Assembly (NCBI GenBank): GCA_019456305.1
Contig: VRUD01000023.1
Location: 1 to 50,668 of the forward strand
DNA length: 50,668 nt
Direction of reading: 5' to 3'
Source: Cytophagales bacterium
GTDB lineage: Bacteria; Bacteroidota; Bacteroidia; Cytophagales; VRUD01
Part shown: in pieces, positions 17,223 through 46,527 of the stretch
Layout of the letters: each line of letters opens with the position of its first letter
How positions within the stretch are numbered: position 1 is the first letter of the stretch
The notes under the pieces: generated by a model
What the model saw: only the letters and a program-made list of their open reading frames with translations
Databases searched by the model: none
What the model was told of the DNA's origin: nothing
Position numbers and translations under genes: made by a program

Positions 17223-17517
17223 AAATCCCAAACAAATCCCAATTACAAAATTCCTACCGAATATTCTGGATTGAAGCTTGACTTTGAAAAAAACAGTATA
17301 TTTTATTGGAAATTATCAATTACATACTGCGCGGACCTCAAATATTAAATAAATGATTTATAAAGTGATATTCCCTTAAACCGGGGCGTGAATTACTTGT
17401 TACAGAGATATGATATATATAATTATCAGCTCAAATGAAGTTTAAAAATGCAATGATATGGCTTTATATTTTAATTTGCAATTAATTCCCTATTAATTTT
17501 AAAAAAAAATTAATAGC

Positions 17518-17747
17518 TCATTCAATAATAAGTTTATCAGTTGCAAATAATTTACCATTAATATAGACTTTATAAAAATATAAACCTTTAGGGCATCTCT
17601 AAAAACTACACCATACATTCCCCTCTATCAAGAGGGGCAAGGGGTGTGTTTTAAAAAATATGTAGTTTTTAGAGATGCCCTAAAGTCAAGATTGGTTTTT
17701 GACTGTCCTTCAGTGAGGAATGATTTATACAAATTTTGTCCTGCAAT
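17518..17747 (-). pseudogene. T9SS sorting-domain remnant, interrupted by a 90-bp element
   Basis: Read on the - strand from 17747, skipping the element at 17591-17680 plus one copy of its TA, the sequence gives GQNLYKSFLTEGQ, TNLDFKGLYFYKVYINGK, LFATDKLIIE and a TGA at 17518-17520. This is a perfect T9SS C-terminal tail (GLYFYKVY..GK). Only about 45 residues remain. The right end stops exactly where the repeat array starts (17748), so the array or a deletion removed the rest. Confidence 0.8.
17591..17680. mobile_element. 90-bp miniature inverted-repeat element with TA duplication
   Basis: Ends are GGGCATCTCTAAAAACTACA (17591-17610) and its exact reverse complement (17661-17680). It is flanked by TA at 17589-17590 and 17681-17682. 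Removing the element and one TA restores the reading frame of the T9SS tail around it, which proves the insertion. A TA target is typical of IS630/Tc1-mariner elements and of the IS427 group of IS5, so a transposase of one of these in the same genome probably moved it. The interior has a small CCCCTC...GAGGGG hairpin and no gene. Confidence 0.88.
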
Positions 17748-17884
17748 ATAAAAAAATAATGTGAACCTATAAATTATTTCGTTTGGTTCTTATTCCTTTT
17801 TTATATAATTTCGTGTAGTTATTAAAAATAGTTATATTCGTATCTGAAAATAAATATTAATGTATGACTTAACGAAATAAAAAT
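17748..17884 (+). repeat. Promoter-bearing repeat, first (partial) copy of the array
   Basis: Contains AATGTGAACCTATAAATTAT, TTTCGTTTGGTTCTTATTCC and a promoter-like pair (TTTCG near 17810, TATATTCG at 17833-17840). It is shared with copies at about 19436-19546, 22195-22380 and 22450-22520. It ends directly at the first cassette gene. Confidence 0.85.
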
Positions 17885-18166
17885 ATGCATAAAATGTTAA
17901 ATATAAAACCAGATTCACAGCAATATATTGAGGATCTCCATTATGATGGAGAAGGTGATGAATTTTATCATAAATATGAAAATCAATGGATTGCGATTGT
18001 AAACAAGCACGTGGTAGCTTTTGGGAATGATCCCTTAAAAGTTAAAAAAAAGCTGCACAAAAAACCGGAAAATCTAATTATGAAATCCCAATCAAATTTA
18101 TTGAAAGTGCAGGAGCAATATTATAATGTAAAAATTATTATATTTGTCTCTGAAAAAAAATATTAA
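17885..18166 (+). CDS. DUF5678-like small protein, C-terminus altered
   Basis: 93 residues. The middle (YENQWIAIVNKHVVAFGNDPLKVKKKLHKKP, about residues 30-60) fits DUF5678, a small domain often found in toxin-antitoxin-like pairs. The end (YYNVKIIIFVSEKKY) is coded by the array repeat (compare ATTTGTATCTGAAAAAAAAT in other copies), so the original C-terminus has been lost or replaced. Start ATG 17885 follows the promoter-bearing repeat; another ATG lies three codons later. First gene of the same-strand array. Confidence 0.6.
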   Translation: MHKMLNIKPDSQQYIEDLHYDGEGDEFYHKYENQWIAIVNKHVVAFGNDPLKVKKKLHKKPENLIMKSQSNLLKVQEQYYNVKIIIFVSEKKY

Positions 18167-18234
18167 AGTATAACAAATAAGAAAAAATTCTATTTTCATT
18201 TAATTATACACTTATTTTGTATTAATTCTGTAAT

Positions 18235-18598
18235 AAAATAATAATAGGATTATGTCTAGTATAAGACTTTCTGCAAAAGCCAAATCAGTGATAAACAAAC
18301 TGGTTTCTTCCAAAGATTCAGATAATAAAGGATATATTGCAGCTTTAGATTCTGCCAATGGCGAATATTTTTTAGGTAAAACGATTGTTGATGCTTCCAA
18401 AAAGGGCCGAATAGCAAGAAATAATCCCAAAGCAATTTTTCATTTTATTAGAATTGGATATCCATCAGTAGATGTACTCAAAAATGTCAGACTACAAGGT
18501 AAAATAATTGAACATTATTTACCGAAAATTTATGCAAATAATATTTGATTTTGAACATGATAAAATACTATTTCATAATTAATCACTGAATTAAACAA
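18235..18598 (+). repeat. 364-bp exact duplication, copy A
   Basis: Identical by eye to 21070-21433 (offset 2835). The block contains one complete small gene (18252-18548) with about 17 bp before it and 50 bp after it. Outside the block the sequences differ at once. Confidence 0.9.
18252..18548 (+). CDS. 98-residue conserved small protein, array copy A
   Basis: The segment KGYIAALDSANGEYFLGKTIVDASKKGRIARNNPKAIFHFIRIGYPSV resembles the DUF5678-like GY(I/V)A..D..TGEYF.G.....A fold, seen in small proteins next to PIN or aspartyl-protease-like partners. No partner gene follows. It is identical in DNA and protein to the copy at 21087-21383. Function unknown; possibly an orphan antitoxin-like protein. 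A conserved frame with start, stop and no mutation in either copy suggests recent duplication or selection. Confidence 0.7.
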   Translation: MSSIRLSAKAKSVINKLVSSKDSDNKGYIAALDSANGEYFLGKTIVDASKKGRIARNNPKAIFHFIRIGYPSVDVLKNVRLQGKIIEHYLPKIYANNI

Positions 18599-18618
18599 CA
18601 AAAATATAGCGTTGAGCT

Positions 18619-18816
18619 GTAATTCTTAAAGCAGAAAACTATATAATCATCAACACAACTAAGGATAAATACACTGTTCACATGACGATGAAAGCCCTTG
18701 AAAATAAACTTCCTGCCGAAGAATTCATACGGGTTCATCGTTCTTATATTGTCAGAAAGGAAATGATTTTATTGGATACCGATATTATTATTGAAGGGCA
18801 TTGCTTATCTTTGTGA
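18619..18816 (+). pseudogene. LytTR DNA-binding domain fragment
   Basis: The open frame without a proper start reads AENYIIINTTKDKYTVHMTM, KALENKLPAEEFIRVHRSYIVRK and then DTDIIIEGHCLSL before a TGA at 18814-18816. FIRVHRSYIV is the LytTR signature found in LytR/AgrA response regulators. The receiver domain and the last strand of the LytTR domain are missing. It lies between cassettes, so it is debris trapped in the array. Confidence 0.8.
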
Positions 18817-18843
18817 GAATAACAAATATAATTCTTTATACAG

Positions 18844-19044
18844 ATGAAAACAATCGTAATACAATCTGCAAATGATGAAGATTCCAGCTTCCTGTTAAAG
18901 TTTGCCAGAAAAATGAAAATGAAAGCCCGGTTCATTGATGAGGAAGAACTGGAAGACCGCTGGCTTGCAAAATTAATTGACGAAGGGATGAAAGAGGAAG
19001 GAGAAATTCCAGTCGAAAAAGTTCTTGACAAGCTGCGCAAGTAA
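18844..19044 (+). CDS. Antitoxin of RelE-type pair
   Basis: 66 residues. A short N-terminal part (MKTIVIQSANDEDSSFLLKFARKM) resembles the small Bacteroidota antitoxins that begin with a strand and then a helix; an acidic helix follows (FIDEEELEDRWLAKLIDEGMKEEGEIP). The stop overlaps the toxin start (TAATG at 19042-19046). It should neutralise the downstream toxin. Same strand as all array genes. Confidence 0.78.
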   Translation: MKTIVIQSANDEDSSFLLKFARKMKMKARFIDEEELEDRWLAKLIDEGMKEEGEIPVEKVLDKLRK

Positions 19045-19319
19045 TGGAAATAATAATTAAACCGAGCTTTAACAGGGATATAACCATTCGGGATAAAGCG
19101 CTTAAGAAAACCCTTGAGTCGAAAATTTTGCAGATAATACGTGCAAAAGACATTTCACATATCACTGGGCTTAAATTGCTGAAAGGGTATTCACGTCATT
19201 ACAGAATAAAAGTTTCAACGAAAAAGAAAGAGTATCGGGTTGGCGCTGTTATACGGGACAAAAAAATTTGGCTTGTCCGGTTTTTACACCGCAGAAAAAT
19301 ATACAAGAAGTTTCCTTAA
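19044..19319 (+). CDS. RelE/ParE-superfamily toxin
   Basis: 91 basic residues with the RelE fold pattern: helix (RDKALKKTLESKILQIIRAKDI), then the strands GLKLLKGYSRHYRIKVSTKKKEYRVGAVIRDKKIWLVRFLHRRKIYKKFP. The ending RFLHRRKIYK matches the conserved HRRxIY motif, where catalytic and RNA-binding residues lie. Probably an mRNA interferase. It overlaps the antitoxin by one base and is followed by the array repeat. Confidence 0.85.
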   Translation: MEIIIKPSFNRDITIRDKALKKTLESKILQIIRAKDISHITGLKLLKGYSRHYRIKVSTKKKEYRVGAVIRDKKIWLVRFLHRRKIYKKFP

Positions 19320-19371
19320 AAACTATGGGATATGAAAAAAACAAAATGATTTTTTTTGAAACAAATACATA

Positions 19372-19546
19372 TAAACCATGACTTAACAAACTAAAACATA
19401 ACAAAAAAGTTGCGTTGCTGACGTTTCTCTAACAATAACTACAAGAAAATATATAAAAAAATAATGTGAACCTATAAATTATTTCGTTTGGTTCTTATTT
19501 CTTTTTTATATAATTTCGTGAAGTTATTAAAAATAGTTATATTTGT
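19372..19546 (+). repeat. Array repeat, copy after the RelE-type pair
   Basis: Starts ACCATGACTTAACAAACTAA, then the AACATAACAAAAAAGTTGCG and GTTGCTGACGTTTCTCTAAC blocks, AATGTGAACC, and ends at the promoter-like TATATTTG (19538-19545). The same start block recurs at 22115. This is the fullest copy together with that at 22115-22380. Confidence 0.88.
19514..19545 (+). promoter_or_regulatory. Promoter-like sequence carried by the array repeat
   Basis: TTTCG at 19514-19518 and TATATTTG at 19538-19545, 19 bases apart. It fits the Bacteroidota pattern of TTTG at -33 and TAnnTTTG at -7 except for one base in the first box. It points toward the TumE-type pair. Equivalent sequence occurs in the other repeat copies, each pointing into the next cassette. 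Confidence 0.5.
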
Positions 19547-19547
19547 A

Positions 19548-19632
19548 CTGAACTAAACCCCCACACCAAATCAAAGCTGTACAATAGCATATAAATAAAA
19601 CTTAATAATTTGGTGTAGGGGGAAACAAGAAA
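19548..19632 (+). repeat. CCACACCAAAT dyad repeat, copy 1
   Basis: An imperfect dyad: CCCCCACACCAAAT at its left and ATTTGGTGTAGGGGG at its right, enclosing AGCTGTACAATAGCATATAA. Copy 2 is at 20385-20460. Both copies sit right before AACAAGAAAAATATA and between cassettes. Confidence 0.8.
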
Positions 19633-19662
19633 AATATATAGAAAAAAAATTAGGGATTAATA

Positions 19663-19971
19663 ATGTTAAAATTAAATATAAAATTACAACCCGAAACAGA
19701 AGAAAAAATAAGGCTAATGTTAGCTCAACATTCAGATAAGGAAATTTTTTTTCAAGGTATTATCAAACACAAAATCAATGAATTAAAAAATGGAATTGTC
19801 AATATTAAAATTGATTTACAACAATTTGAAGAAAAATACAATCTCTCTACTGAAGATTTTTATAACAAATTTATTAACGGTGAATTGGGTGATGAAGAAG
19901 ATTTTTTGATCTGGTCAGGCATTTACGAAATGCAATTAAGAAATGAGAAAGAATTAAAAAAATTTGAATGA
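19663..19971 (+). CDS. Antitoxin-like partner of TumE-family toxin
   Basis: 102 residues, helical and acidic. The end LSTEDFYNKFINGELGDEEDFLIWSGIYEMQL is a recognisable family pattern (ELGDxxDFxxWxxLYEM) in small proteins that precede TumE-like genes. The stop overlaps the next start by 4 bp (19968-19971), so the two are translated together. A promoter-bearing repeat lies upstream. Confidence 0.75.
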   Translation: MLKLNIKLQPETEEKIRLMLAQHSDKEIFFQGIIKHKINELKNGIVNIKIDLQQFEEKYNLSTEDFYNKFINGELGDEEDFLIWSGIYEMQLRNEKELKKFE

Positions 19972-20345
19972 TTGAAGTATATTTTGACAAAATAGAAAAC
20001 ACAATTTTATTTTTCAAAGTTAAAATAAAATTTTATTCAATAACCAAAAAAGCCTATAATGAAAAGCAGGGATTTATAAAAGGAGAAATTCATTTTATCA
20101 ATGATAGTCGGTTTTATTTTATTGAAGTGAAAGATGTTGAGTTAAGGACAAAAGATAAATACAGTTATCATTATGTAGATAAAGACAATACTTTGATTTT
20201 TCGATATGACAATGCGGATCATCATAAAGAAATCACTACATTTCCACATCATAAACATTTGCCTAATAATAAATTAATTGAAAGTGTAGAGCCCGAATTA
20301 TTCGATGTATTAATTGAAACACAAAAAAAATCGCGTGGTAAATAA
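19968..20345 (+). CDS. TumE-family toxin (DUF6516)
   Basis: 125 residues. Family marks: an N-terminal strand-helix (IEVYFDKIENTILFFKVKIKF), a central GEIHFINDSRFYFIEVKDVEL and the signature YSYHYVDKDNTLIFRYDNADHHKEITTFPHHKH (about residues 66-98), rich in His and Asp, which is the presumed active region. TumE proteins are toxins of the TumE/TumA type; mode of action is not clear from sequence. Complete, with the usual length. Confidence 0.8.
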   Translation: MIEVYFDKIENTILFFKVKIKFYSITKKAYNEKQGFIKGEIHFINDSRFYFIEVKDVELRTKDKYSYHYVDKDNTLIFRYDNADHHKEITTFPHHKHLPNNKLIESVEPELFDVLIETQKKSRGK

Positions 20346-20384
20346 AGGTTTTTTTGTTACTAAAAAAAATAATTATATTCACAT

Positions 20385-20460
20385 TGAACTAAACCTCCAC
20401 ACCAAATCAAAGCTGTACAATAGCATATAAATAAAACTTAATAATTTGGAGTGGGAGTAA
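20385..20460 (+). repeat. CCACACCAAAT dyad repeat, copy 2
   Basis: Near-identical to 19548-19632 across AAATCAAAGCTGTACAATAG and the following CATATAAATAAAACTTAATA. The right arm differs (TTTGGAGTGGGAG). It directly follows the TumE-type pair. Confidence 0.8.
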
Positions 20461-20489
20461 ACAAGAAAAATATAGTGTAAAAAAGAAAA

Positions 20490-20556
20490 AAACATAACAA
20501 AAAAGTTGCGTTGCCCCGCACATAAATTATGTGCGGGGCGTTGCTGACGTTTCTCT
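20490..20556 (+). repeat. Array repeat fragment with 25-bp palindrome insertion
   Basis: The AACATAACAAAAAAGTTGCG and TTGCTGACGTTTCTCT blocks of the array repeat, split by CCCCGCACATAAATTATGTG followed by CGGGG (20514-20538). CGTTG is duplicated on both sides (20509-20513 and 20539-20543). Other copies read GTTGCGTTGCTGACG without interruption. Confidence 0.85.
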
Positions 20557-20560
20557 GGAA

Positions 20561-20722
20561 ATGCCAAAATTATATGAATATTTAGGAATTGTAGTTCGAT
20601 TCTTTTCAGAAGAGCATGAACCAGTTCATATTCATGCTTTTTATGGTGAATATCAACTTAAAGTTGAATTGATTATTAAGAGTGGAAAAATTGTAACTAT
20701 CAAATATAAAAATGTTATATGA
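20561..20722 (+). CDS. DUF4160 protein, C-terminally short
   Basis: 53 residues from the ATG at 20561 (MPKLYEYLGIVVRFFSEEHEPVHIHAFYGEY), an exact match to the DUF4160 start pattern (LGIVIxMFxxEHxPPHFHAxYGEY). Family members usually run to about 80-110 residues with a further helix; this one stops after KSGKIVTIKYKNVI, so it is probably shortened. It overlaps the DUF2442 start by 4 bp. DUF4160/DUF2442 neighbours form a recognised toxin-antitoxin-like pair. I discard the earlier start at 20531 because that stretch is repeat DNA. Confidence 0.75.
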   Translation: MPKLYEYLGIVVRFFSEEHEPVHIHAFYGEYQLKVELIIKSGKIVTIKYKNVI

Positions 20723-20949
20723 AAGTAACAAAAGTTAAATATTTGTCAGGTTACAAGCTTGAAATTAAGTTTAATGATGGAAAAGTAAATGTAGTTGATT
20801 TTGAGAATTTTTTTAATAAATCTCAAAATCCAATGATTTCTAAATACAAGAATATTAATAAATTTAAAAAAGTAGAAATTGACACTGGCTTTCTTTCATG
20901 GAATAATGGTGAAATGGAAATTTCATCTCAAACTCTTTATTATAATTAG
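20719..20949 (+). CDS. DUF2442 protein
   Basis: 76 residues: VTKVKYLSGYKLEIKFNDGKVNVVDFENFF, then KFKKVEIDTGFLSWNNGEMEISSQTLYYN. This fits DUF2442, whose members have YxLxxxFxDGxxxxVDF and a late WPNGxDxxPDxLY. Translation is coupled to the DUF4160 gene. The pair is thought to act as a toxin-antitoxin-like unit; which is the toxin is unknown. Confidence 0.78.
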   Translation: MKVTKVKYLSGYKLEIKFNDGKVNVVDFENFFNKSQNPMISKYKNINKFKKVEIDTGFLSWNNGEMEISSQTLYYN

Positions 20950-20956
20950 AAAATTT

Positions 20957-21075
20957 ATTATATTTACTTCTTAGAATAAATATTAAAGTATGACATAACG
21001 AAATAAAACATAACAAAAAAATTGCGTTGCTGACGTTTCTCTGACAATAACTACAAGAAAATATATAAAAAAATA
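20957..21075 (+). repeat. Array repeat, copy before the duplicated gene
   Basis: TTATATTTACTTCTTAGAAT, then ATTAAAGTATGACATAACGA, AACATAACAAAAAAATTGCG, TGCTGACGTTTCTCTGACAA, and the AAGAAAATATATAAAAAAAT block. It runs straight into the 364-bp duplicated block at 21070. Confidence 0.85.
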
Positions 21076-21433
21076 ATAATAGGATTATGTCTAGTATAAG
21101 ACTTTCTGCAAAAGCCAAATCAGTGATAAACAAACTGGTTTCTTCCAAAGATTCAGATAATAAAGGATATATTGCAGCTTTAGATTCTGCCAATGGCGAA
21201 TATTTTTTAGGTAAAACGATTGTTGATGCTTCCAAAAAGGGCCGAATAGCAAGAAATAATCCCAAAGCAATTTTTCATTTTATTAGAATTGGATATCCAT
21301 CAGTAGATGTACTCAAAAATGTCAGACTACAAGGTAAAATAATTGAACATTATTTACCGAAAATTTATGCAAATAATATTTGATTTTGAACATGATAAAA
21401 TACTATTTCATAATTAATCACTGAATTAAACAA
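21070..21433 (+). repeat. 364-bp exact duplication, copy B
   Basis: Second copy of 18235-18598. Here the left neighbour is the array repeat and the right neighbour is AAGAAAAATATAGTGTAAAA, which also occurs at 20463 and 22530. In copy A the right neighbour differs (CAAAAATATAGCG). Confidence 0.9.
21087..21383 (+). CDS. 98-residue conserved small protein, array copy B
   Basis: Identical to the protein at 18252-18548 across all 98 residues. It resembles DUF5678-type small domains (GYIAALDSANGEYFLGKT). Start ATG after an AGGATT sequence in both copies. No partner frame follows before the VapBC-type pair. Its meaning in the array is discussed under findings. Confidence 0.7.
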   Translation: MSSIRLSAKAKSVINKLVSSKDSDNKGYIAALDSANGEYFLGKTIVDASKKGRIARNNPKAIFHFIRIGYPSVDVLKNVRLQGKIIEHYLPKIYANNI

Positions 21434-21497
21434 GAAAAATATAGTGTAAAAAAGAAAAAAACAACAAGAAAATTGATAAACTAAAAACAACCGAAAC

Positions 21498-21731
21498 ATG
21501 AGGAATTTAACATTAAACATCAAAAACGCAAGCGACTATCAGCTTCTTTTGCAACTGGCAAAGCGGCTTGGGTTAGATATTTCAGTTACCGCTGAAAAAA
21601 AAGAAAAAGTACAAACAAAGCAAATGCGAAATCTTTACAAGTTACTCGATTCAGTGAAGAAAAACGAATTATTCAAAGAAATCAAGGATCCTGTAAAATG
21701 GCAAAAAGAATTACGAGATGAATGGAGATAA
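21498..21731 (+). CDS. Antitoxin of PIN-domain pair
   Basis: 77 residues of the Bacteroidota VapB-like type: TLNIKNASDYQLLLQLAKRLGLDISV, then a charged C-terminal tail ending KDPVKWQKELRDEWR, which should wrap the toxin. It overlaps the toxin frame by 14 bp. The start follows a short AACAAGAAAATTGATAAAC spacer. Confidence 0.82.
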   Translation: MRNLTLNIKNASDYQLLLQLAKRLGLDISVTAEKKEKVQTKQMRNLYKLLDSVKKNELFKEIKDPVKWQKELRDEWR

Positions 21732-22107
21732 ACTTCTTTTTGATAGCAACATCATCATATATTTATCCAAAGGGCTTCTGGATGCAAAAGAATTTACAAA
21801 TGCGGAAGATGTACCTCATATTTCAGTTATTACATATATGGAAGTAATGGGCTACCGTTTTAAACGGGTAAAGGAGAAGAGATTTATAGAAAAATTTTGT
21901 GCAGATGCTTACATCCTTTCATTGGATGATGAAATCGTTAACAAAGTTATTGCGTTACGAAAAGAAAAAAATATCAAACTTCCTGATGCAATCATCACAG
22001 CAACAGCTTTAAAAAATAAAATGCAATTAATAACACGCAACACAGTAGATTTCAAAAACATTAAAGGACTTAATCTTTTTAATCCATTTGATAATAATAA
22101 AGAATAA
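21718..22107 (+). CDS. PIN-domain toxin (VapC-like RNase)
   Basis: 129 residues with all four acidic PIN positions: Asp in LLFDSNIIIYLSKG, Glu in SVITYMEVMGY, Asp in KLPDAIITATAL and Asn/Asp in ITRNTVDFKNI. Such enzymes cleave tRNA or rRNA. It appears intact and is paired with the antitoxin upstream. The 3' side runs into the array repeat ACCATGACTTAACAAACTAA. Confidence 0.9.
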   Translation: MNGDKLLFDSNIIIYLSKGLLDAKEFTNAEDVPHISVITYMEVMGYRFKRVKEKRFIEKFCADAYILSLDDEIVNKVIALRKEKNIKLPDAIITATALKNKMQLITRNTVDFKNIKGLNLFNPFDNNKE

Positions 22108-22114
22108 ATTTTTA

Positions 22115-22380
22115 AACCATGACTTAACAAACTAAAACATAACAAAAAAATTGCGTTGCTGACGTTTCTCTAACAATAACTACAAGAAAATATATAAAAA
22201 AATAATGTTCACCCCGTTAGATAATTTTTATTGAAAATATAGCTTATATCAAGGTCTTTATCTAACGGGGTGAACCTATAAATTATTTCGTTTGGTTCTT
22301 ATTTCTTTTTTATATAATTTCGTGTAGTTATTAAAAATAGTTATATTTGTATCTGAAAAAAAATATTAAAGTATGACATA
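22115..22380 (+). repeat. Array repeat, fullest copy, with a 63-bp insertion
   Basis: Contains every block of the repeat in order, interrupted once at 22208-22270. Without the insertion it is about 200 bp. A second copy follows head to tail (22380-22520), so two units are in tandem here with no gene between them. Confidence 0.88.
22208..22270. mobile_element. 63-bp palindromic insertion in an array repeat
   Basis: Compared with the other copies (AATGTGAACC), 63 extra bases are present. The insert begins TTCACCCCGTTAGATAA (22208-22224), and the exact reverse complement ends at 22274 with TGAA supplied by the target. No clear target duplication. The interior (TTTTATTGAAAATATAGCTT) has no gene. 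It could be a hairpin-type element moved in trans. Confidence 0.75.
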
Positions 22381-22600
22381 ACGAAATAAAACATAACAAA
22401 AAAGTTGCGTTGCTAACGTTTCTCTAACAATAACTACAAGAAAATATATAAAAAAATAATGTGAACCTATAAATTATTTCGTTTGGTTCTTATTCCTTTT
22501 TTATATAATTTCGTGTAGTTTTAACTAAACAAGAAAAATATAGTGTAAAAAAGAAAAAGACATAATAAAAAAGTTGCGTTGCTAACATTTCTTTTATAGA
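22380..22600 (+). repeat. Array repeats, last copies
   Basis: A second complete unit (22380-22520), the AACAAGAAAAATATAGTGTA block (22526-22550) and a truncated GTTGCGTTGCTAACATTTCT block (22572-22592). The array ends here. There is no cassette gene within this stretch. Confidence 0.85.
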
Positions 22601-27898: not shown

Positions 27899-27970
<72 letters not shown>

Positions 27971-28000
27971 TAGGGAGACAGGTTTCCGAAAGTTAGAGTT

Positions 28001-28044: not shown

Positions 28045-28175
28045 TACTGCTGCTTGTTTGTTTTGGGTTATAAAATGGATAAACAGCATTTTAAAAAATA
28101 GAACACAGATAATGATTTTAGAATGTCCCACCTGCATTACACGCGAGCGGTAAGCATAATTATTAACATATAATT

Positions 28176-28191
28176 TGTTCCACGTGAAACA
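28176..28191. promoter_or_regulatory. parS site 1
   Basis: TGTTCCACGTGAAACA, identical to the well-known Bacillus parS consensus. Binding site for the chromosome-partition protein ParB. Confidence 0.92.
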
Positions 28192-28245
28192 TTAATTTAA
28201 ATTAAATTACTACATTTGCAATATTAGTCCAATTGCCAAACAATA

Positions 28246-28261
28246 TGTTTCACGTGAAACA
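28246..28261. promoter_or_regulatory. parS site 2
   Basis: TGTTTCACGTGAAACA, the fully palindromic form of parS. It lies 70 bp from site 1, just before the start of the MNT gene. Confidence 0.93.
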
Positions 28262-28267
28262 CTACAA

Positions 28268-28582
28268 ATGAAAGCCGACAAAAAGATATTAGAAAAGGTA
28301 AAAAACAGGTTGGTTAAAGCCTATAATCCATTGGCCATTTATCTGTTTGGCTCTCATGCATGGGGAGAGCCAGATAAAGACAGTGATCTGGATTTATTGG
28401 TCGTAGTAGCTAATGAAACCGAATTAGAAAGCCCAAAAGGGCTTAAAGGTCAATATGCCTTAGCAGATCTCGGAATTGCAAAAGACTTAATCATTACAAA
28501 ATTAGACAGGTTTAATCAACAGGCAAATCATCCTGCTACACTGTATTTTAAAATCAAAAATGAAGGGATCAAAATATACTGA
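28268..28582 (+). CDS. Minimal nucleotidyltransferase (MNT antitoxin type)
   Basis: 104 residues of the DNA polymerase beta-like nucleotidyltransferase superfamily. The signature LFGSHAWGEPDKDSDLDLLVVV (about residues 25-46) has GSxxxG and the DxD metal pair. In HEPN/MNT pairs the MNT protein AMPylates and silences the HEPN RNase. Here the HEPN gene that follows (from 28560, overlapping by 23 bp) is truncated, so the pair is no longer functional as such. Sits between parS sites 2 and 3. Confidence 0.88.
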   Translation: MKADKKILEKVKNRLVKAYNPLAIYLFGSHAWGEPDKDSDLDLLVVVANETELESPKGLKGQYALADLGIAKDLIITKLDRFNQQANHPATLYFKIKNEGIKIY

Positions 28583-28709
28583 ACCCTATGAAGATTGGCT
28601 TTTAAAAGCAAATAATGATTTGCTTTCATCTAAACATCTTTTTGAAAAACAAAATTTTAAAAAAATAAAAACGTTTCACGTGAAACATCTAACCAGTAAA
28701 ATAATCTGA
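28560..28709 (+). pseudogene. Truncated HEPN-domain gene
   Basis: 49 codons: MKGSKYTEPYEDWLLKANND and LLSSKHLFEKQNF are the typical first helix of HEPN proteins (DWLxKAxxDLxxAxxL). After residue about 33 the frame runs into the parS site (coding TFHVKHL) and soon stops. The catalytic RxxxxH helix of HEPN RNases is absent, so it is dead as an RNase. Confidence 0.75.
28672..28687. promoter_or_regulatory. parS site 3
   Basis: CGTTTCACGTGAAACA, one base off the full 16-bp palindrome. It lies inside the truncated HEPN frame, 46 bp before the mnmG start. Confidence 0.9.
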
Positions 28710-28732: not shown

Positions 28733-30781
28733 GTGTTCCCCAAATACGACATCATAATAGTAGGTGCCGGCCATGCCGGCTGCGAAGCTGCTCATGCCGC
28801 TGCAACAATGGGCTCCAAAGTCCTCTTGGTGACGATGGACATGACCCGTATTGCGCAGATGTCGTGCAATCCTGCAATGGGTGGTGTGGCAAAAGGTCAG
28901 ATCGTCAGGGAAATAGACGCCCTGGGCGGCATGTCAGGAATTGTATCAGACTGCACGATGATACAATTCCGTATGCTGAACAAGTCAAAAGGGGCTGCCA
29001 TGTGGAGCCCGAGATCGCAAAACGACCGGATGAGGTTTTCTGAAGAATGGCGGTTGATTCTGGAAAAGAATAAAAACATAGACTTCTGGCAGGAAATGGT
29101 GCGGGAGATAATAGTACACAAAAGTATGTCGGGTGGAAACACCCGACAACACGTGGCTGGCGTGAAAACCGGCATGGGGATCAATATCTATTCAAAAGCG
29201 GTAATACTCACTAACGGTACATTCTTAAACGGCATCATCCATATCGGTGAAAAAAAGTTTGGCGGGGGCAGGATCGGGGAAAAGACAGCCACAGGAATTA
29301 CCGAACAATTAGTTTCCCTCGGCTTTGAATCAGGCAGGATGAAAACCGGCACCCCCCCAAGAGTGGACGGCAGGTCGCTGGACTTTTCAAAGATGGAAGA
29401 ACAAAAAGGGGATGCAAATCCTGGTAAATTCTCTTTTACGCAAAAACCTGAATTGACTGAACAAAAAAGCTGCTTTATCACCTATACAAGCCCCGAAGTA
29501 CACGATATTCTTAAAACCGGCTTTAAAAGATCACCTATGTTCACCGGGCGTATCAAAGGCATCGGCCCGCGTTACTGTCCCTCCATAGAAGACAAAATAG
29601 ACAGGTTCGCTGATAGAGAACGGCACCAGTTGTTCGTGGAACCGGAAGGATGGGATACCATTGAGATCTATGTAAACGGCTTTTCTACCTCTCTTCCTGA
29701 AGATGTGCAATATAAAGCGCTTACCAGGATACCCGGTTTTGAAAATGTAAAAATGTTTCGTCCCGGCTATGCCATCGAATACGATTATTTTCCTCCTACT
29801 CAATTAAACTTAACCCTGGAAACAAAGCCGGTCGAAAACCTCTATTTTGCAGGACAGATCAATGGCACTACCGGCTACGAAGAAGCTGCATGCCAGGGCC
29901 TGATGGCTGGAATTAACGCCCACACCAAAATAAAGAATAAAGAAAATTTTACCCTCAAAAGGTCAGAAGCCTACATGGGTGTGCTGATAGATGACCTGAT
30001 CAACAAAGGGACAGATGAACCTTACAGGATGTTCACATCAAGAGCAGAACACCGGATCCTGTTAAGACAGGATAATGCGGATATCAGGCTGACAAAAAAA
30101 GGCTATGGCCTGGGATTGATAAAAGAAGAAAGAATGACCGGATTAAAAAACAAGATCGATCAAATTTCAAGCTTGACGAAGGAATTAAAGAAAAAAAAAT
30201 ATACCCCGGAAGAAATAAATCCAACATTGATCAAATTAAACTCCGCCCCGGTCAAAGAAAAAACCAATGTCTATTCCCTGTTAAAAAGACCCAATATTGA
30301 TCTTGAAACATTATGTAATAATCATAAGAAATTTAAAAGTTTTATTGATCAAATTTTACCCTCATTGTTAGAAGAAGAGGAAATAAGGGAAATAAAGGGA
30401 ATAGGGGAAGTCGGCAGTCTTCAGTCGGCAGTCAGCAAAATGACCAATGACGCGGGAGGGAGTTCCCCCTTCAGGGGGTTAGGGGGTAGCGAGGAAATAG
30501 TCAGAACAAATAACGCTATGCGCTCAGAAGTGCTGGAACAGGTTTCAATCTTGATCAAATATGAAGATTATATCAATAAAGAACACCAATTGGTAGAAAA
30601 AATGAGCCGGTTGGATGATCTTAAAATTCAGTATTTGAATTATGATAAAATAGCTGCACTTTCCAATGAAGCAAGAGAAAAATTAAGCAAGATCAAACCC
30701 CAAACTATCGGCCAGGCATCAAGGATCAGCGGGGTGTCTCCGGCTGATGTTTCGGTGTTGATGGTTTATATGGGGAGGTAA
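28733..30781 (+). CDS. mnmG: tRNA uridine-5-carboxymethylaminomethyl modification enzyme MnmG
   Basis: FAD enzyme that with MnmE builds the cmnm5 group on U34 of several tRNAs. 682 residues, longer than the usual 620-630. The FAD fingerprint IIIVGAGHAGCEAA is at residues 6-19, MSCNPAMGGVAKGQI follows, and later NGTTGYEEAACQGL and the C-terminal HQLVEKMSRLDDLKI, ASRISGVSPADVSVLMVY. The extra length is an insert at about residues 557-597 coded by low-complexity and dyad repeats. Start is GTG 28733. mnmG is often near oriC, and here it lies beside three parS sites. Confidence 0.95.
   Translation: MFPKYDIIIVGAGHAGCEAAHAAATMGSKVLLVTMDMTRIAQMSCNPAMGGVAKGQIVREIDALGGMSGIVSDCTMIQFRMLNKSKGAAMWSPRSQNDRMRFSEEWRLILEKNKNIDFWQEMVREIIVHKSMSGGNTRQHVAGVKTGMGINIYSKAVILTNGTFLNGIIHIGEKKFGGGRIGEKTATGITEQLVSLGFESGRMKTGTPPRVDGRSLDFSKMEEQKGDANPGKFSFTQKPELTEQKSCFITYTSPEVHDILKTGFKRSPMFTGRIKGIGPRYCPSIEDKIDRFADRERHQLFVEPEGWDTIEIYVNGFSTSLPEDVQYKALTRIPGFENVKMFRPGYAIEYDYFPPTQLNLTLETKPVENLYFAGQINGTTGYEEAACQGLMAGINAHTKIKNKENFTLKRSEAYMGVLIDDLINKGTDEPYRMFTSRAEHRILLRQDNADIRLTKKGYGLGLIKEERMTGLKNKIDQISSLTKELKKKKYTPEEINPTLIKLNSAPVKEKTNVYSLLKRPNIDLETLCNNHKKFKSFIDQILPSLLEEEEIREIKGIGEVGSLQSAVSKMTNDAGGSSPFRGLGGSEEIVRTNNAMRSEVLEQVSILIKYEDYINKEHQLVEKMSRLDDLKIQYLNYDKIAALSNEAREKLSKIKPQTIGQASRISGVSPADVSVLMVYMGR
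30390..30525 (+). repeat. Repeat-derived insert coded inside mnmG
   Basis: Contains AAAGGGAATAGGGGAAG, CGGCAGTCTTCAGTCGGCAG and AGTTCCCCCTTCAGGGGGTT. These are intergenic-type repeats. They are translated as KGIGEVGSLQSAVSK...GGSSPFRGLGGSEE in the MnmG C-terminal domain. The first two blocks also occur inside pyc. Confidence 0.85.
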
Positions 30782-39867: not shown

Positions 39868-40392
39868 ATGAATATAAAACACGCCTCGCTCAAAAAAATA
39901 ACCACTTTCATATTTGATGTGGACGGTGTGCTTAGCGATGGCACTGTATTGGCGCTTGATAGCGGGGAGCAGGCCAGAACATTTAATATCAAAGACGGCT
40001 ATGCAGTGCAGCTTGCTGTAAAGTTAGGTTACAACGTAGCCATAATTTCAACGGGAACCCGGATTGGCGTTCGGGAACGGCTGGAATTTCTTGCTATTAA
40101 AGATATTTTTATGGGAATTGAAGATAAGATCAAAGTTTTTGAAAATTACCTGGAAACAAAAAATATAACAGAAGATACCGTCCTGTATATGGGTGATGAC
40201 CTTCCTGATTATGCAATTCTAAAAAGAGTTGGCCTGGCTACTTGTCCTGCTGACGCTGCTGATGACATAAAAACTATCTGCCATTACATTTCATCTTTTC
40301 CAGGCGGGAAAGGAGCCGTACGTGATGTGATCGAGAAGGTGATGAAAATGCAGGGGAAATGGATGTTAGATCACGAATTAAAAAAACCATGA
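39868..40392 (+). CDS. kdsC: 3-deoxy-D-manno-octulosonate 8-phosphate phosphatase (KdsC-like HAD)
   Basis: Removes phosphate from KDO-8-P for lipopolysaccharide synthesis. 174 residues, single HAD domain without cap. Nucleophile motif FIFDVDGVLSDGT (Asp18), motif II IISTGTR, and motif IV YMGDDLPDYAILKRVGLATCPADA. The family also contains similar low-cap C0 phosphatases for other sugars. The last 4 bp overlap the start of the LRR gene (ATGA), so translation is coupled. Confidence 0.92.
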   Translation: MNIKHASLKKITTFIFDVDGVLSDGTVLALDSGEQARTFNIKDGYAVQLAVKLGYNVAIISTGTRIGVRERLEFLAIKDIFMGIEDKIKVFENYLETKNITEDTVLYMGDDLPDYAILKRVGLATCPADAADDIKTICHYISSFPGGKGAVRDVIEKVMKMQGKWMLDHELKKP

Positions 40393-42200
40393 ACTGCCGA
40401 TATATAGGAACACCATTATCGCTTATATGCTTGATCGTATACGTTTCATCTTTCGCCCAGAAAGCTGATGAAATTGCTAAAAGTGAAGTGATAAAGATAC
40501 TACAGAATTATGAAAATGCTTTAAATGCATTGGGCGATACCGCTATGAGCAACGAAGAAAGGAAACCAACTTTGAAAAAGTTTAGGAAAGATTTTGAAGC
40601 GAAGGATATTTTTGTTTTCAATGACCTTCCCGAAGACACAACTGTTGGCAAAGATAGTACCTCAATAGGTGATAAATTGCCCGGTTTTAGTCAGGCGAGG
40701 AGAGACTCTGCTGAAGAATATCTTACCATATATCAATATTTTAAGGACCTGCCTGTTTTGTATCCGAATGGGTTTAAAATTATGCTGGATAGGAAAAAGG
40801 TCAGGATAGGACCAATTAAAAAAAATAAAAAACGAAATACCTACATGATCGTTGCAAATGTTATAAAAAGGATTGAGATTACTGATGTGATTTTAGATAC
40901 TGGAAGGCATACATTCAGTAGGGCCTCTGATACGCTCGTTCCTCCCTACCTGCCCGCCAAAGGCAAAGCCCAAACATGGCAGGTGGGCGGTTCAGGCATT
41001 TCTTCCCGTCTTGTTGAAGATACAATGCGAATCGATACTTCCGCGACAGACACACTTGCAAAAGAAAAAAGATCCGATATGCTTACATCTACAATATATG
41101 ATACAATAGCATTTGATTCAGTGAGATATGATACTGTAACAAATAGAAAGTCTTACCATTTAACTTTCTTCATTAAGCTGGATATTAAGGAACAAATACC
41201 CCAAAACTTCAAAGTTTATGCGATCAGTAAGACAGGTGATGAACCGCGGCTCAAGCCGTTGCCCGAAATTGTTTCGTGGTGGGTATCTATGGATGATCCG
41301 TGGAAAAAAGTATTTTCAGAAAAATTGACATTTCCGGAATTCCCCGGCGTTAAAGAGCTAAATCATGTTTATTCTTTGAGGGAATTGACTTGCTCCGGTG
41401 AGGACATTACTACCCTGGAGCCAATTCGCAACTTAAAACAGCTTCGAATATTGAAATGTTCAGGCACATCTGTTAGTTCCCTTGAGCCTGTTGCTGAACT
41501 TGAAAATCTGGTATGGCTCAAAATAAACAAGAATAAGCTCACCAGCCTGGAACTGATTAAGAACCTTGTCAATCTTCAAAAGCTTGAATGCAGCGGGCAG
41601 GATATCTCCTCCCTGGCGCCTTTAAAAAACCTGGTGAATTTGATAGAGCTTGACTGCTCTGACAATGAGCTGGAAGATATTGAGCCGCTCAGATATCTTG
41701 ACAGCCTGGAAAGAGTTGACTTTTCACTCAATACAGATATAAGCAATATTGAACCGGTACGAAAGCTGACTAAATTAGTAGAGCTGCGTTTTGGTAAAAT
41801 AGACATCAAATCGCTTGAACCTGTAAAGAATTTGACCAACCTGATAGAGCTGGATTGTTTTAATACTGAAATTTCATCCCTCGAGCCATTAAAGGGGCTC
41901 CGCAAGCTTGCCTTGCTCAATTGCAGCTATACAAAGATAACAACCCTTGACCCGATAAGCAAGCACCGGTATATTGCCTGGCTTTATATTTCAGGAAACA
42001 CCATTGATGATATTGGCTTTTTAAAAAATTTTACTTTTCTCAAAGAGTTGGATATATCAAAAACTTCTGTGAGCAGCCTTGATGCTATCCAAAAACTTGA
42101 GTTTATTGAAATGCTAAAGTGCTTTTATACCAAAATTTCCAAAGAGGAGGTGCAGCGTTTTAAGAAGAAGCATCCGAGATGTGCGATCACTTATTATTAA
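40389..42200 (+). CDS. Exported leucine-rich repeat protein
   Basis: 603 residues from the ATG at 40389 (MNCRYIGTPLSLICLIVYVSSFAQ, a clear signal peptide). An N-terminal region of no known family (about 25-325) is followed by about eleven 22-residue SDS22-like repeats (SLEPIKNLVNLQKLECSGQDIS pattern) to the end. LRRs of this type bind proteins. Coupled to kdsC by a 4-bp overlap, yet no clear functional link. A dyad-coded insert (PPYLPAKGKAQTWQVGGSG) lies near residues 185-203. The end overlaps the convergent toxin gene by 14 bp. Confidence 0.82.
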   Translation: MNCRYIGTPLSLICLIVYVSSFAQKADEIAKSEVIKILQNYENALNALGDTAMSNEERKPTLKKFRKDFEAKDIFVFNDLPEDTTVGKDSTSIGDKLPGFSQARRDSAEEYLTIYQYFKDLPVLYPNGFKIMLDRKKVRIGPIKKNKKRNTYMIVANVIKRIEITDVILDTGRHTFSRASDTLVPPYLPAKGKAQTWQVGGSGISSRLVEDTMRIDTSATDTLAKEKRSDMLTSTIYDTIAFDSVRYDTVTNRKSYHLTFFIKLDIKEQIPQNFKVYAISKTGDEPRLKPLPEIVSWWVSMDDPWKKVFSEKLTFPEFPGVKELNHVYSLRELTCSGEDITTLEPIRNLKQLRILKCSGTSVSSLEPVAELENLVWLKINKNKLTSLELIKNLVNLQKLECSGQDISSLAPLKNLVNLIELDCSDNELEDIEPLRYLDSLERVDFSLNTDISNIEPVRKLTKLVELRFGKIDIKSLEPVKNLTNLIELDCFNTEISSLEPLKGLRKLALLNCSYTKITTLDPISKHRYIAWLYISGNTIDDIGFLKNFTFLKELDISKTSVSSLDAIQKLEFIEMLKCFYTKISKEEVQRFKKKHPRCAITYY

Positions 42201-42969: not shown

Positions 42970-45900
42970 TCACTCCAAACTAACCACCAGGTCATCCGCA
43001 TTTACCATGGCGCCTTCTTTTAAGTTCACAGCTTTGATTTTAATGCTGCCGGGGGCAGTGATGATTGTTTCCATTTTCATCGCTTCAATGATGAACAACG
43101 GTTCATTCTTTTTCACTTTCTGACCATTTTTTACAAATATTTTAGACAGCATACCCTGAAGCGGAGTTCCGATCTGCCTTGGATCACCCGGTTCAATTTT
43201 CAGATTTTCAACCTTTTCAACTTCAAGAGACCGGTCATGAACTTCAATGTTTCTTGTCTGTCCGTTTACCTTAAAGAAGACGGTGCGGTTTCCTTCTTCA
43301 TTGGGAGGCCCGACAGAAAGCAGCTTTACAACAATGGCTTTACCCTCGGCTATTTCAATGATGGTCTCTTCATTTGGCTGCATCCCGAAAAAGAAATTGG
43401 TGGTGGGTATCTTTGAAATATCACCAAATTCCATGTGCTTCTTCAATGATGCTTCATATACTTTCGGGTATAATTTATGGGAGAGGAAATCAGTAAATAC
43501 AAGCTCCCGGTCAAAATCCGGCTGGAACTTTTTCAAAAATTCGGCAAATTCCTTTTTAATGTCAACCGGCTGAAGGTGGGCATTGGGGCGGTTTTTATAG
43601 GGCTTTTTGTCCTTCAGCACTAACTTCTGTAGTTTTTTTGGAAATCCATTGACAGGCTGTCCGATATCTCCCATGAAAAACGATTGCACCGATTCCGGGA
43701 ATGAAATGCTTTCACCTTTTTGCAGGATATCTTCTTTGGTGAGGCCATTGGAAACCATATAAAGCGCCATGTCACCCACCACTTTGGAACTGGGGGTTAC
43801 TTTGATCACGTTTCCAAACAACTCATTCACCTCTGCATAAGCTTCTTTTATGCGTCCAAATTTATCGCCCAGGCCAAGTGCAGTTGCTTGCGGCTTTAAA
43901 TTAGAATATTGGCCACCGGGTATTTCGTGAATGAAGACTTCTGCCGTACTTGCTTTTAATCCCGATTCAAAAGGATAGTAATACTCCCGCACGGTTTCCC
44001 AGTAATTGGAGAATTTATTCAATGATGTGATGTCAAATTTATTTTCCCTTTTATGGAATTGCATCATTTCAACTATAGAATTAAAATTGGGCTGTGAGGT
44101 TAAGCCAGATAAGCCTCCCAATGCCACATCAACCACATCCACTCCTGCTTCAATGGCTTTAAGATAAGTGGCAGCCTGGAGGGAAGAAGTATCGTGTGTA
44201 TGCAAGTGTATCGGGATCTTCACCGTTTCTTTTAAAGCCGTTACCAGTTCAGTAGCAGCATAAGGTTTTAACAAACCACTCATATCCTTGATCGCCAGAA
44301 TATGTGCCCCGGCATCCTCCATCTCTTTTGCTACCTGCAGGTAATACTTTAAAGAATATTTTGTTTTATTAACATCAAGAATATCGCCTGTATAACATAT
44401 TGCCCCTTCGGCTATGCCCCCGGTTCGTTTCCTGACGTACCGGATACAAGGTGCAATATTTTCCATCCAGTTCATAGAATCAAATATTCTGAAAATATCA
44501 ACACCCGTTTCCCACGATTTTTCAACAAAGCTTTCAATGAGGTTGTCGGGATAGGCAGAATATCCCACCCCGTTTGAGCCCCTTATCAGCATTTGTAAAA
44601 GTATGTTGGGAATGGCTTTGCGAAGGTCAGCCAAACGCTTCCAGGGATTTTCATATAAAAACCTTAAGCACACATCAAAGGTTGCTCCGCCCCATACTTC
44701 TAAGCTAAATGTTTGCGGATGATTTTTGGCAAAGCTTTCTGCTACCTTCAGCATATCATAAGTGCGCATGCGGGTTGCCAAAAGAGATTGGTGTGCGTCT
44801 CTGAAAGTTGTATCCGTATAATGGATCTTTTTCTCATCCTTCAGCCATTTTGAAAATTTATCCGCTCCTAATTTGGTTAAAAGGTCTTTTGTCCCTTTTG
44901 GGTATTGCTGGTAATGTTTGTAGGGTGGAACTTCGGGAGCATGAAACTGTTTATTCTTATCAATATATTTAACATCAGGGTTGTTGTTTACGATTATATC
45001 TCCGAGATATTTCACGATCTTCGTTGCCCTGTCAAGCCGTTTATCCCATTTAAAAAGTTCCTTATTTTCATTGATGAAATTAACGGTTGCCTTTCCTTCA
45101 CGGAATATCTTATGATTAACAATATTTTCCAGGAACTGGATATTAAGCTTAACCCCCCTGATCCTGAACTCCTGCAAAGCCCTGTTCATTCTTCTGCAGG
45201 CGCCATCCAAAGTCCTTGAGTGTGCTGATACTTTTACCAGCAATGAATCAAAAAACGGGCTGATCTTTACGCCCTGGTAGATGCTGCCAACATCTAGCCT
45301 GATGCCAAAGCCCGCAGCGCTTCTGTAAGTTATGATGGTTCCATAGTCGGGTTTAAAGTCATTTTCAGGGTCTTCCGTAGTGATCCTGCATTGAATAGCG
45401 TAGCCATTGGTGGTGACAGATCCCTGGTTTGGTATTTTGATCTGTTTGTCCTGTAGTTTGTATCCCCCGGCAATAAATATCTGTGTTTTGATCAGGTCAA
45501 TACCCGTCACCATTTCAGTTACAGTATGCTCAACCTGTATCCTGGGGTTTACTTCTATAAAATAAATATTAGAAGCTGATTGTTCCTTGCCAACTGCCGA
45601 CTGCTGACTACTGACTGCTGACTGCCGGCTGCTACTCCATTCTTCCCCTATTCCCTTATTTCCTCTATTTCCTTTATTTACAAGAAATTCTACCGTACCC
45701 GCATTATTATAATTAACAGCCCGGGCAATTTTCAGGGCATACTCATACAATTCGTCCTTAATATTTTGTTCCAGGCCAAAGGATGGGGCAAACTCTGTTA
45801 CTTTCTGAAACCTCCTTTGTACAGAGCAATCTCTTTCAAACAGGTGAACAATATTTCCATAATTGTCCCCGACAATCTGGACTTCAATATGCTTGGGATT

Positions 45901-46527
45901 TTCTATAAATTTTTCAATGAGCAGTGTGCCGTCTCCGAATGCGTTAAGCGCCTCACGTTGTGCTTCATAAAATGCGTTCTCCATTTCTTCCTTGTTCCTG
46001 ACCACACGCATTCCCCTTCCTCCACCGCCTGCAGTGGCTTTGAGCATTACGGGGAAACCGATTCTTTGGGCTTCTTTCAAGGCAGCAGCGGCATCCTTTA
46101 AATCTCCGGCATTACCTTCTATGACCGGGATGTTGTTTTGTTTTGCGATCTTGCGGGCAGAGATCTTGTCGCCTAATGCTGAGATTACTTCAGGCCTTGG
46201 CCCGATGAAGATTATCCCGTTTTCTTCACACTTGCTGGCAAACCGGCTGTTCTCCGATAAAAATCCATAGCCCGGATGAATTGCATCCACATTTTTTTCC
46301 CTGGCAATGTTGATGATCTCGTCAATATCAAGGTAGGGTTTCAGAGGTTCGTTATCTTTGCCAACCTGGTAAGATTCGTCCGCTTTATACCTGTGCTGCG
46401 AATAGCGGTCTTCATAAGTATAAATAGCCACAGTCTTTAAGCCGATCTCTACACAAGCCCTGAATATCCGAATAGCAATCTCACCCCTGTTTGCAACCAA
46501 TATTTTTTTGATTTTCATCCTGTACAT
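42970..46527 (-). CDS. pyc: Pyruvate carboxylase
   Basis: Biotin enzyme making oxaloacetate from pyruvate and bicarbonate. 1185 residues: biotin carboxylase domain (KATAGGGGRGMRVV; FIEVNPRIQVEHTVTE), carboxyltransferase domain (YTDTTFRDAHQSLLATRMRTYDM; HLHTHDTSS), tetramerisation region and BCCP with the biotin lysine in EAMKMET near the C-terminus. An insert of about 40 residues lies at about 283-320 between GTVEFLV and IYFIEVNP, coded by a repeat shared with mnmG. Probable true start is the ATG at 46518 (MKIKKILVANRGEIA); the first ATG sits on the same ATGTACAGGATGAA word as AbiEi. Confidence 0.96.
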   Translation of the reverse strand: MYRMKIKKILVANRGEIAIRIFRACVEIGLKTVAIYTYEDRYSQHRYKADESYQVGKDNEPLKPYLDIDEIINIAREKNVDAIHPGYGFLSENSRFASKCEENGIIFIGPRPEVISALGDKISARKIAKQNNIPVIEGNAGDLKDAAAALKEAQRIGFPVMLKATAGGGGRGMRVVRNKEEMENAFYEAQREALNAFGDGTLLIEKFIENPKHIEVQIVGDNYGNIVHLFERDCSVQRRFQKVTEFAPSFGLEQNIKDELYEYALKIARAVNYNNAGTVEFLVNKGNRGNKGIGEEWSSSRQSAVSSQQSAVGKEQSASNIYFIEVNPRIQVEHTVTEMVTGIDLIKTQIFIAGGYKLQDKQIKIPNQGSVTTNGYAIQCRITTEDPENDFKPDYGTIITYRSAAGFGIRLDVGSIYQGVKISPFFDSLLVKVSAHSRTLDGACRRMNRALQEFRIRGVKLNIQFLENIVNHKIFREGKATVNFINENKELFKWDKRLDRATKIVKYLGDIIVNNNPDVKYIDKNKQFHAPEVPPYKHYQQYPKGTKDLLTKLGADKFSKWLKDEKKIHYTDTTFRDAHQSLLATRMRTYDMLKVAESFAKNHPQTFSLEVWGGATFDVCLRFLYENPWKRLADLRKAIPNILLQMLIRGSNGVGYSAYPDNLIESFVEKSWETGVDIFRIFDSMNWMENIAPCIRYVRKRTGGIAEGAICYTGDILDVNKTKYSLKYYLQVAKEMEDAGAHILAIKDMSGLLKPYAATELVTALKETVKIPIHLHTHDTSSLQAATYLKAIEAGVDVVDVALGGLSGLTSQPNFNSIVEMMQFHKRENKFDITSLNKFSNYWETVREYYYPFESGLKASTAEVFIHEIPGGQYSNLKPQATALGLGDKFGRIKEAYAEVNELFGNVIKVTPSSKVVGDMALYMVSNGLTKEDILQKGESISFPESVQSFFMGDIGQPVNGFPKKLQKLVLKDKKPYKNRPNAHLQPVDIKKEFAEFLKKFQPDFDRELVFTDFLSHKLYPKVYEASLKKHMEFGDISKIPTTNFFFGMQPNEETIIEIAEGKAIVVKLLSVGPPNEEGNRTVFFKVNGQTRNIEVHDRSLEVEKVENLKIEPGDPRQIGTPLQGMLSKIFVKNGQKVKKNEPLFIIEAMKMETIITAPGSIKIKAVNLKEGAMVNADDLVVSLE
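45575..45690. repeat. Repeat-derived insert coded inside pyc
   Basis: On the coding strand: GGAAATAAGGGAATAGGGGA, then AGCAGCCGGCAGTCAGCAGT and further CAGT/CAGC words to about 45577. Encodes NKGNRGNKGIGEEW...RQSAVSSQQSAVGKEQSAS. The words match those in mnmG at 30390-30440 in the same codon phase. Confidence 0.88.

Follow-up and report, generated by a model that had tools for sequence, protein, structure and literature searches.

The STRR heptamers of cyanobacteria are seven-base tandem repeats that lie between genes. The Rickettsia palindromic elements (RPEs; Ogata et al., 2000; reviewed in PMC10969869) are dispersed repeats that occur in frame in unrelated protein genes, and several families occur per genome, with the elements proposed to be structurally compatible with the host protein. 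GTAG/CGTC REPs lie within coding regions of several species, including repair and replication genes, and their tolerance as loops has already been proposed (PMC3733652). TAACTGA and other heptamer direct repeats are known from Beggiatoaceae, cyanobacteria and a few Bacteroidetes, where they are mostly intergenic and have a patchy phylogenetic distribution; in the BOGUAY genome a few repeats fall in assigned proteins, mostly at protein ends (PMC4679880).

We analysed a 50,668-nucleotide stretch of a Cytophagales (Bacteroidota) genome, hereafter the window, in which an open reading frame with the domains of pyruvate carboxylase (Pyc) carries an in-frame insert (Table 1). Between GTVEFLV (residues 277–283) and IYFIEVNP (residues 321–328) there are 37 residues in Pyc and 4–6 in its relatives, a net insert of ∼32 residues (96 nt) within a tight turn; the original prediction had rightly placed extra residues here, but had put their number at about 40. 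The insert was absent from all 95 relatives compared, as was also seen in a 27-sequence alignment, the nearest relatives being from the same order only. In the closest solved structure (PDB 3bg5) the flanks are contiguous, with query residues 284|318 corresponding to chain residues 305|306. When the biotin carboxylase region was modelled with AlphaFold2, strands 276–284 and 320–327 were confident and residues 287–317 had a pLDDT of ∼25–42; the underlying alignment held 27 sequences, and a second segment (391–428) was likewise of low confidence. In the model the insert forms a disordered loop that lengthens a hairpin. Its site lies between the strands that we take to bear the two metal-binding glutamates of biotin carboxylase.

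Table 1. Positions of the repeats and of the genes that carry them; those given without a prefix refer to the window.
Feature	Position	Strand	Description
pyc (pyruvate carboxylase) ORF	42970–46527	−	1185 aa, frame intact
In-frame Pyc insert	∼45577–45672	−	∼96 nt; residues ∼286–317, hairpin turn, biotin carboxylase ATP-grasp domain
9-mer block of pyc insert	45642–45672	−	GGAAATAGAGGAAATAAGGGAATAGGGGAAG
Heptad array of pyc insert	45585–45632	−	CAGTCAG/CAGTCGG/CAGTTGG type; encodes SRQSAVSSQQSAVG
mnmG (gidA)	28733–30781	+	682 aa; carries a related insert
MnmG insert	30350–30526	+	Residues ∼540–598; 9-mers, heptads, ATGACCAATGA, GGGAGTTCCCCCTTCAGGGGGTTAGGGGG
mnmG 9-mer block and heptads	30378–30441	+	Match pyc and the C70 phosphatase gene
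Intergenic heptad array	27899–27975	+	AGTAGAC type; forward strand has stops
AroB (3-dehydroquinate synthase)	L144:8479–9822	−	Extra residues nearly all heptads and a CAAATCACC repeat
MITE-like element	L165:12328–12525; L183:15932–16122; L192:12974–13171		∼190 bp at these loci (∼140–197 bp overall); inverted ends AATTAGTGTCTGTCTATAA flank two heptad arrays of opposite orientation
Signal-peptide-like N-termini	L189:9223–10239; L198:8446–9498; L176:8115–9362; L184:6917–10702		Second half is reverse-strand heptads (IAYCLLPTANC and similar)
Predicted repeat-coded peptides, examples			GNKGIGEEWSSSR, QSAVSSQQSAVGK

Read in the sense of the gene, the insert consists of a 9-mer-like block (GGAAATAAG-like), a spacer and then CAGTCGG-like heptads. 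It had been predicted to be a dispersed repeat, and a BLAST-type search of the genome bore this out, with 78 other matches at E ≤ 0.001 (best E = 6.4e-13), many of them intergenic. The claim that its DNA is common to pyc and mnmG in the same phase was also upheld: GGGAATAGGGGAAG occurs exactly in both genes, in identical codon phase (KGIGE). In MnmG, as compared with PDB 3cp8, residues ∼540–598 replace ∼6, with the break at 539|599. On contig C70, an ORF assigned by eye to a SpoIIE-like phosphatase has 129 nt in common with mnmG at 84%, and this composite takes in two further, non-tandem segments. The 9-mers are followed by heptads in pyc, mnmG and the C70 phosphatase gene, and the same order is found in non-coding DNA at L142:6377, L165:12810, L177:19357 and C38:37283. 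Upstream of mnmG, at 28172–28687 of the window, there are also three GTTTCACGTGAAAC-like sites, which we take to resemble parS sites.

Across the insert block only one of the six frames is open, in pyc, mnmG and the C70 gene alike, and it is always the coding frame. The common KGIGE phase can be ascribed to survivorship, since in each of these three genes all five remaining frames are interrupted by stops. The original prediction saw one repeat in two enzymes; the block is indeed shared, but two unrelated families make it up, and further families are present in other core genes. It could be argued that a short seed in the pyc turn grew in place by slippage into tandem 9-mers and heptads, with no copy from outside. 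The two pyc blocks are each tandem, the number of copies differs among heptad arrays, and slippage has been proposed as the origin of bacterial heptanucleotide repeats, a view cited in PMC4679880. Independent slippage would not, however, be expected to set two unrelated units in one order at several places, some of them non-coding, or to generate the 129-nt composite of mnmG and C70 with its non-tandem segments, and we regard growth in place as quite unlikely.

Repeat abundance was measured in a sample of 60 stretches and the window (1.24 Mb, 29% of the genome), in which ORFs were called by a simple longest-ORF method and densities are slightly inflated because about six stretches were picked for their matches. 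The sample contained 162 heptad arrays and an order-3 Markov surrogate built from it contained 4, so the arrays do not arise by chance. One exact heptad pattern had 145 matches genome-wide, against 0 for a reversed control pattern; 290 other genomes from the order had 0–9 apiece. ORFs of at least 150 aa make up 81% of the sample and held 35 of 155 heptad arrays, the other 120 lying outside. As tandem 7-nt units that lie mostly between genes, the arrays are like the STRR heptamers in description. Most in-gene copies appear to have been purged, and purifying selection may be surmised from depletion and stop content. A clustering of arrays at flanks was discarded, as inverted partner arrays and low-complexity DNA confounded it. 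The window also has a cluster of many AT-rich repeats of 50–300 nt at 17469–22582, where there are few long ORFs. At L172:11244–11327 a heptad pair lies within the loop of another palindrome (TAGTGGGATTT...), which suggests that repeats are nested in one another's hairpins.

To find repeats inside genes, long ORFs were compared with a library made of the sample's intergenic DNA, and many of them proved to contain repeats. With solved structures as the reference, at least eight core enzymes carry in-frame repeats, namely Pyc, MnmG, AroB, AroA, MenD, MurE, GcvP and PriA, and the insertions are, as with RPEs, in unrelated protein genes. Relative to solved homologues, the breaks fall at 242|341 in AroB, 374|418 in AroA, 406|436 in MenD, 147|184 in MurE and 452|505 in GcvP; in AroB two conserved motifs, GHTIGHALES and HGEAIAIG, are set apart by ∼90 additional residues, and PriA has two palindromes in the linker that follows its N-terminal domain. 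DapF and ArgS show a length excess, but repeat and gap were not cleanly matched and both were excluded from the count; PurD, AsnB, HflX, RluD and ribosomal protein L3 exceed their models in length or bear repeats, and stand outside the eight. The L3 ORF (L196:15111–16058, − strand) encodes 315 aa, the model having 202 positions, and a GTAGAGACGTTGCATG repeat lies past the model end. Pyc and MnmG had been described as two essential enzymes; neither is universally essential, although AroA, MurE and other repeat carriers are core enzymes. Core enzymes seem to tolerate their in-gene repeats as flexible loops at the surface.

The families found in genes are the heptads, the 9-mers, a GTAG-type palindrome (GTAGAGACGCCCAATTTGGGCGTCTCTAC), CCCGAGTACTCGGG and CTGCCCGCCAAAGGC; the GTAGAGACGCCCAATTTGG family, present in PriA, GcvP and others, is by eye a GTAG-tagged palindrome. 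Because several unrelated families occur in genes, a single mobile repeat was rejected as the source. Between them, different genes use each of the three reading frames of the GTAG palindrome. Within the sample, certain long families, such as GGGCATCTCTAAAAAC with its 43 copies, were absent from gene interiors. Also, a CTGCCCGCCAAAGGC-type repeat lies at 40948–40987 of the window, in the ORF of a leucine-rich-repeat-like protein (40359–42200). With in-frame dispersed repeats in unrelated genes and several families in one genome, the situation is reminiscent of RPEs as described. However, RPEs are ∼150 bp palindromes in Rickettsia, and the pyc block consists of tandem 9-mers and heptads in Bacteroidota; no inverted-repeat arms that would make a palindrome of ∼100–150 bp were seen within the pyc insert. 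Similarly, GTAGAGACGCCCAATTTGGGCGTCTCTAC is of GTAG type by sequence and is carried by PriA, as are intragenic REPs by repair and replication genes, but the block of pyc and mnmG is not a GTAG-tagged short palindrome, and REPs are one among several in-gene families here.

The original prediction took the shared repeat to be active, and we considered whether a currently active mobile element, for instance one driven by a RAYT transposase, moves the repeats. The genome encodes five full-length Y1 transposases, GTAG-type palindromes lie within genes, and in the literature GTAG REPs are modelled as mobilized by RAYT (PMC3733652); moreover, a MITE-like element carries heptads (Table 1). Nevertheless, of 155 heptad arrays just 6 fall between MITE-like end pairs (terminal inverted repeats), for which reason this element was rejected as a general heptad carrier. 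No terminal inverted repeats were seen bounding the pyc insert, and heptads have neither a palindrome nor a GTAG tag. Neither the Y1 transposases nor the MITE-like element accounts for heptads generally, and an active element as the mover of the repeats is unlikely. A Y1 transposase-like ORF (L166:6281–7105, − strand) itself has several in-frame TCATCCGATGA repeats.

Since 7 cannot be divided by 3, a tandem heptad encodes an identical cyclic heptapeptide in all three frames of one strand, and each strand has one such cycle. A test of frame bias is therefore uninformative for heptads: pure heptads have no phase to keep, and the restriction falls on orientation. The proposal that copies survive only where they keep the frame thus applies to the composite, whose sole open frame is the coding one in three genes, but not to pure heptads. 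The forward strand encodes hydrophilic, SRQSAVG-like peptides and the reverse strand hydrophobic, LPTANC/LLPTAYC-like ones. Arrays inside proteins were 12 forward to 2 reverse, and those within the first 70 residues 20 reverse to 1 forward (interior versus N-terminal, Fisher P = 1.3e-6), although some of the start codons behind the N-terminal calls may be wrong. Repeat-coded peptides were likewise more hydrophobic at N-termini than in the interior (P = 1e-4). The insertion step seems unbiased, since intergenic arrays ≤ 150 nt upstream of a start were 23 reverse and 21 forward. A stop triplet occurs somewhere in the forward strand of 20 of the 21 N-terminal arrays, so orientation is partly forced. 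The arrays share with TAACTGA-type repeats that they are heptanucleotide direct repeats, mostly intergenic and patchily distributed in phylogeny; however, the unit is CAGTNNN, with the mixed upstream orientation just described, and not a TAACTGA unit directly upstream of starts, and repeats lie inside conserved domains, compared with protein ends in BOGUAY.

The N-terminal cases resemble secretion signals (e.g. MKKLIIILLSIAYCLLPTANCLSQ); they include two PorP/SprF outer-membrane proteins, in which the domain starts right after, one FadL-like protein and one with a T9SS sorting tail. Judged from sequence, the reverse-read heptad appears to supply part of these predicted secretion signals. We tentatively suggest, as a serious possibility that falls short of our favoured reading, that heptads may be frame-free coding modules and recurrent strand-encoded protein parts, the SRQSAVG/QSAVSSQ strand giving cytosolic linkers and the LLPTAYC/LPTANC strand the second half of secretion signals. 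Given intact frames, and the non-random orientation at signal-peptide-like N-termini, where reverse heptads prevail, some copies may be used. By the same evidence the enzyme loops could be selected functional features, serving regulation or binding, with the shared DNA secondary. But the host enzymes are functionally unrelated and the repeats are several and unrelated, and the Pyc insert is predicted to be disordered and has no counterpart in homologues; we find this explanation improbable.

The genome is fragmented (159 contigs) and probably metagenome-derived, and runs of N adjoin some heptad arrays, as might be the case if the inserts were artefacts of assembly or binning. Misassembly would, however, break most of the long frames that are preserved in at least eight core enzymes, all the more as only one in six frames is open per composite, and such an origin is hardly credible.

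From what was observed directly, namely the repeats, their copies, their absence from homologues, the open frames, the depletion from genes and the orientation bias, we conclude that the Pyc insert, in which a heptad array is joined to a 9-mer block, was probably copied from repeat DNA between genes and retained for its open frame and its surface-turn site, and that it exemplifies a process at work throughout the genome. The joined blocks would have entered pyc from intergenic repeat DNA and been kept where length and orientation left the frame open, at a surface hairpin turn; the insert is probably translated into a hydrophilic unstructured loop, which we infer to be harmless. Across the lineage, several unrelated intergenic families would enter core genes, most in-gene copies being purged. 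As the likeliest copying step, ready-made blocks would have been inserted by duplication, through template switching or some other single-strand-based route, after which slippage would have altered the number of heptads; the GTAG palindromes may be moved by RAYT transposases.

In the open-access literature we found no description of tandem heptads in conserved domains of core enzymes, of many repeat families together in one genome, of the strand rule or of repeat-coded signal peptides. The results extend in-frame repeat insertion, best known from Rickettsia and some REPs, to Bacteroidota, to many families, to non-palindromic tandem heptads and to core enzymes. The inserts are natural experiments on which enzyme sites tolerate long loops, and they warn annotators that odd repeat-coded stretches can be genuine protein. 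The strand rule offers a simple route whereby non-coding repeats could turn into protein parts, including secretion signals.
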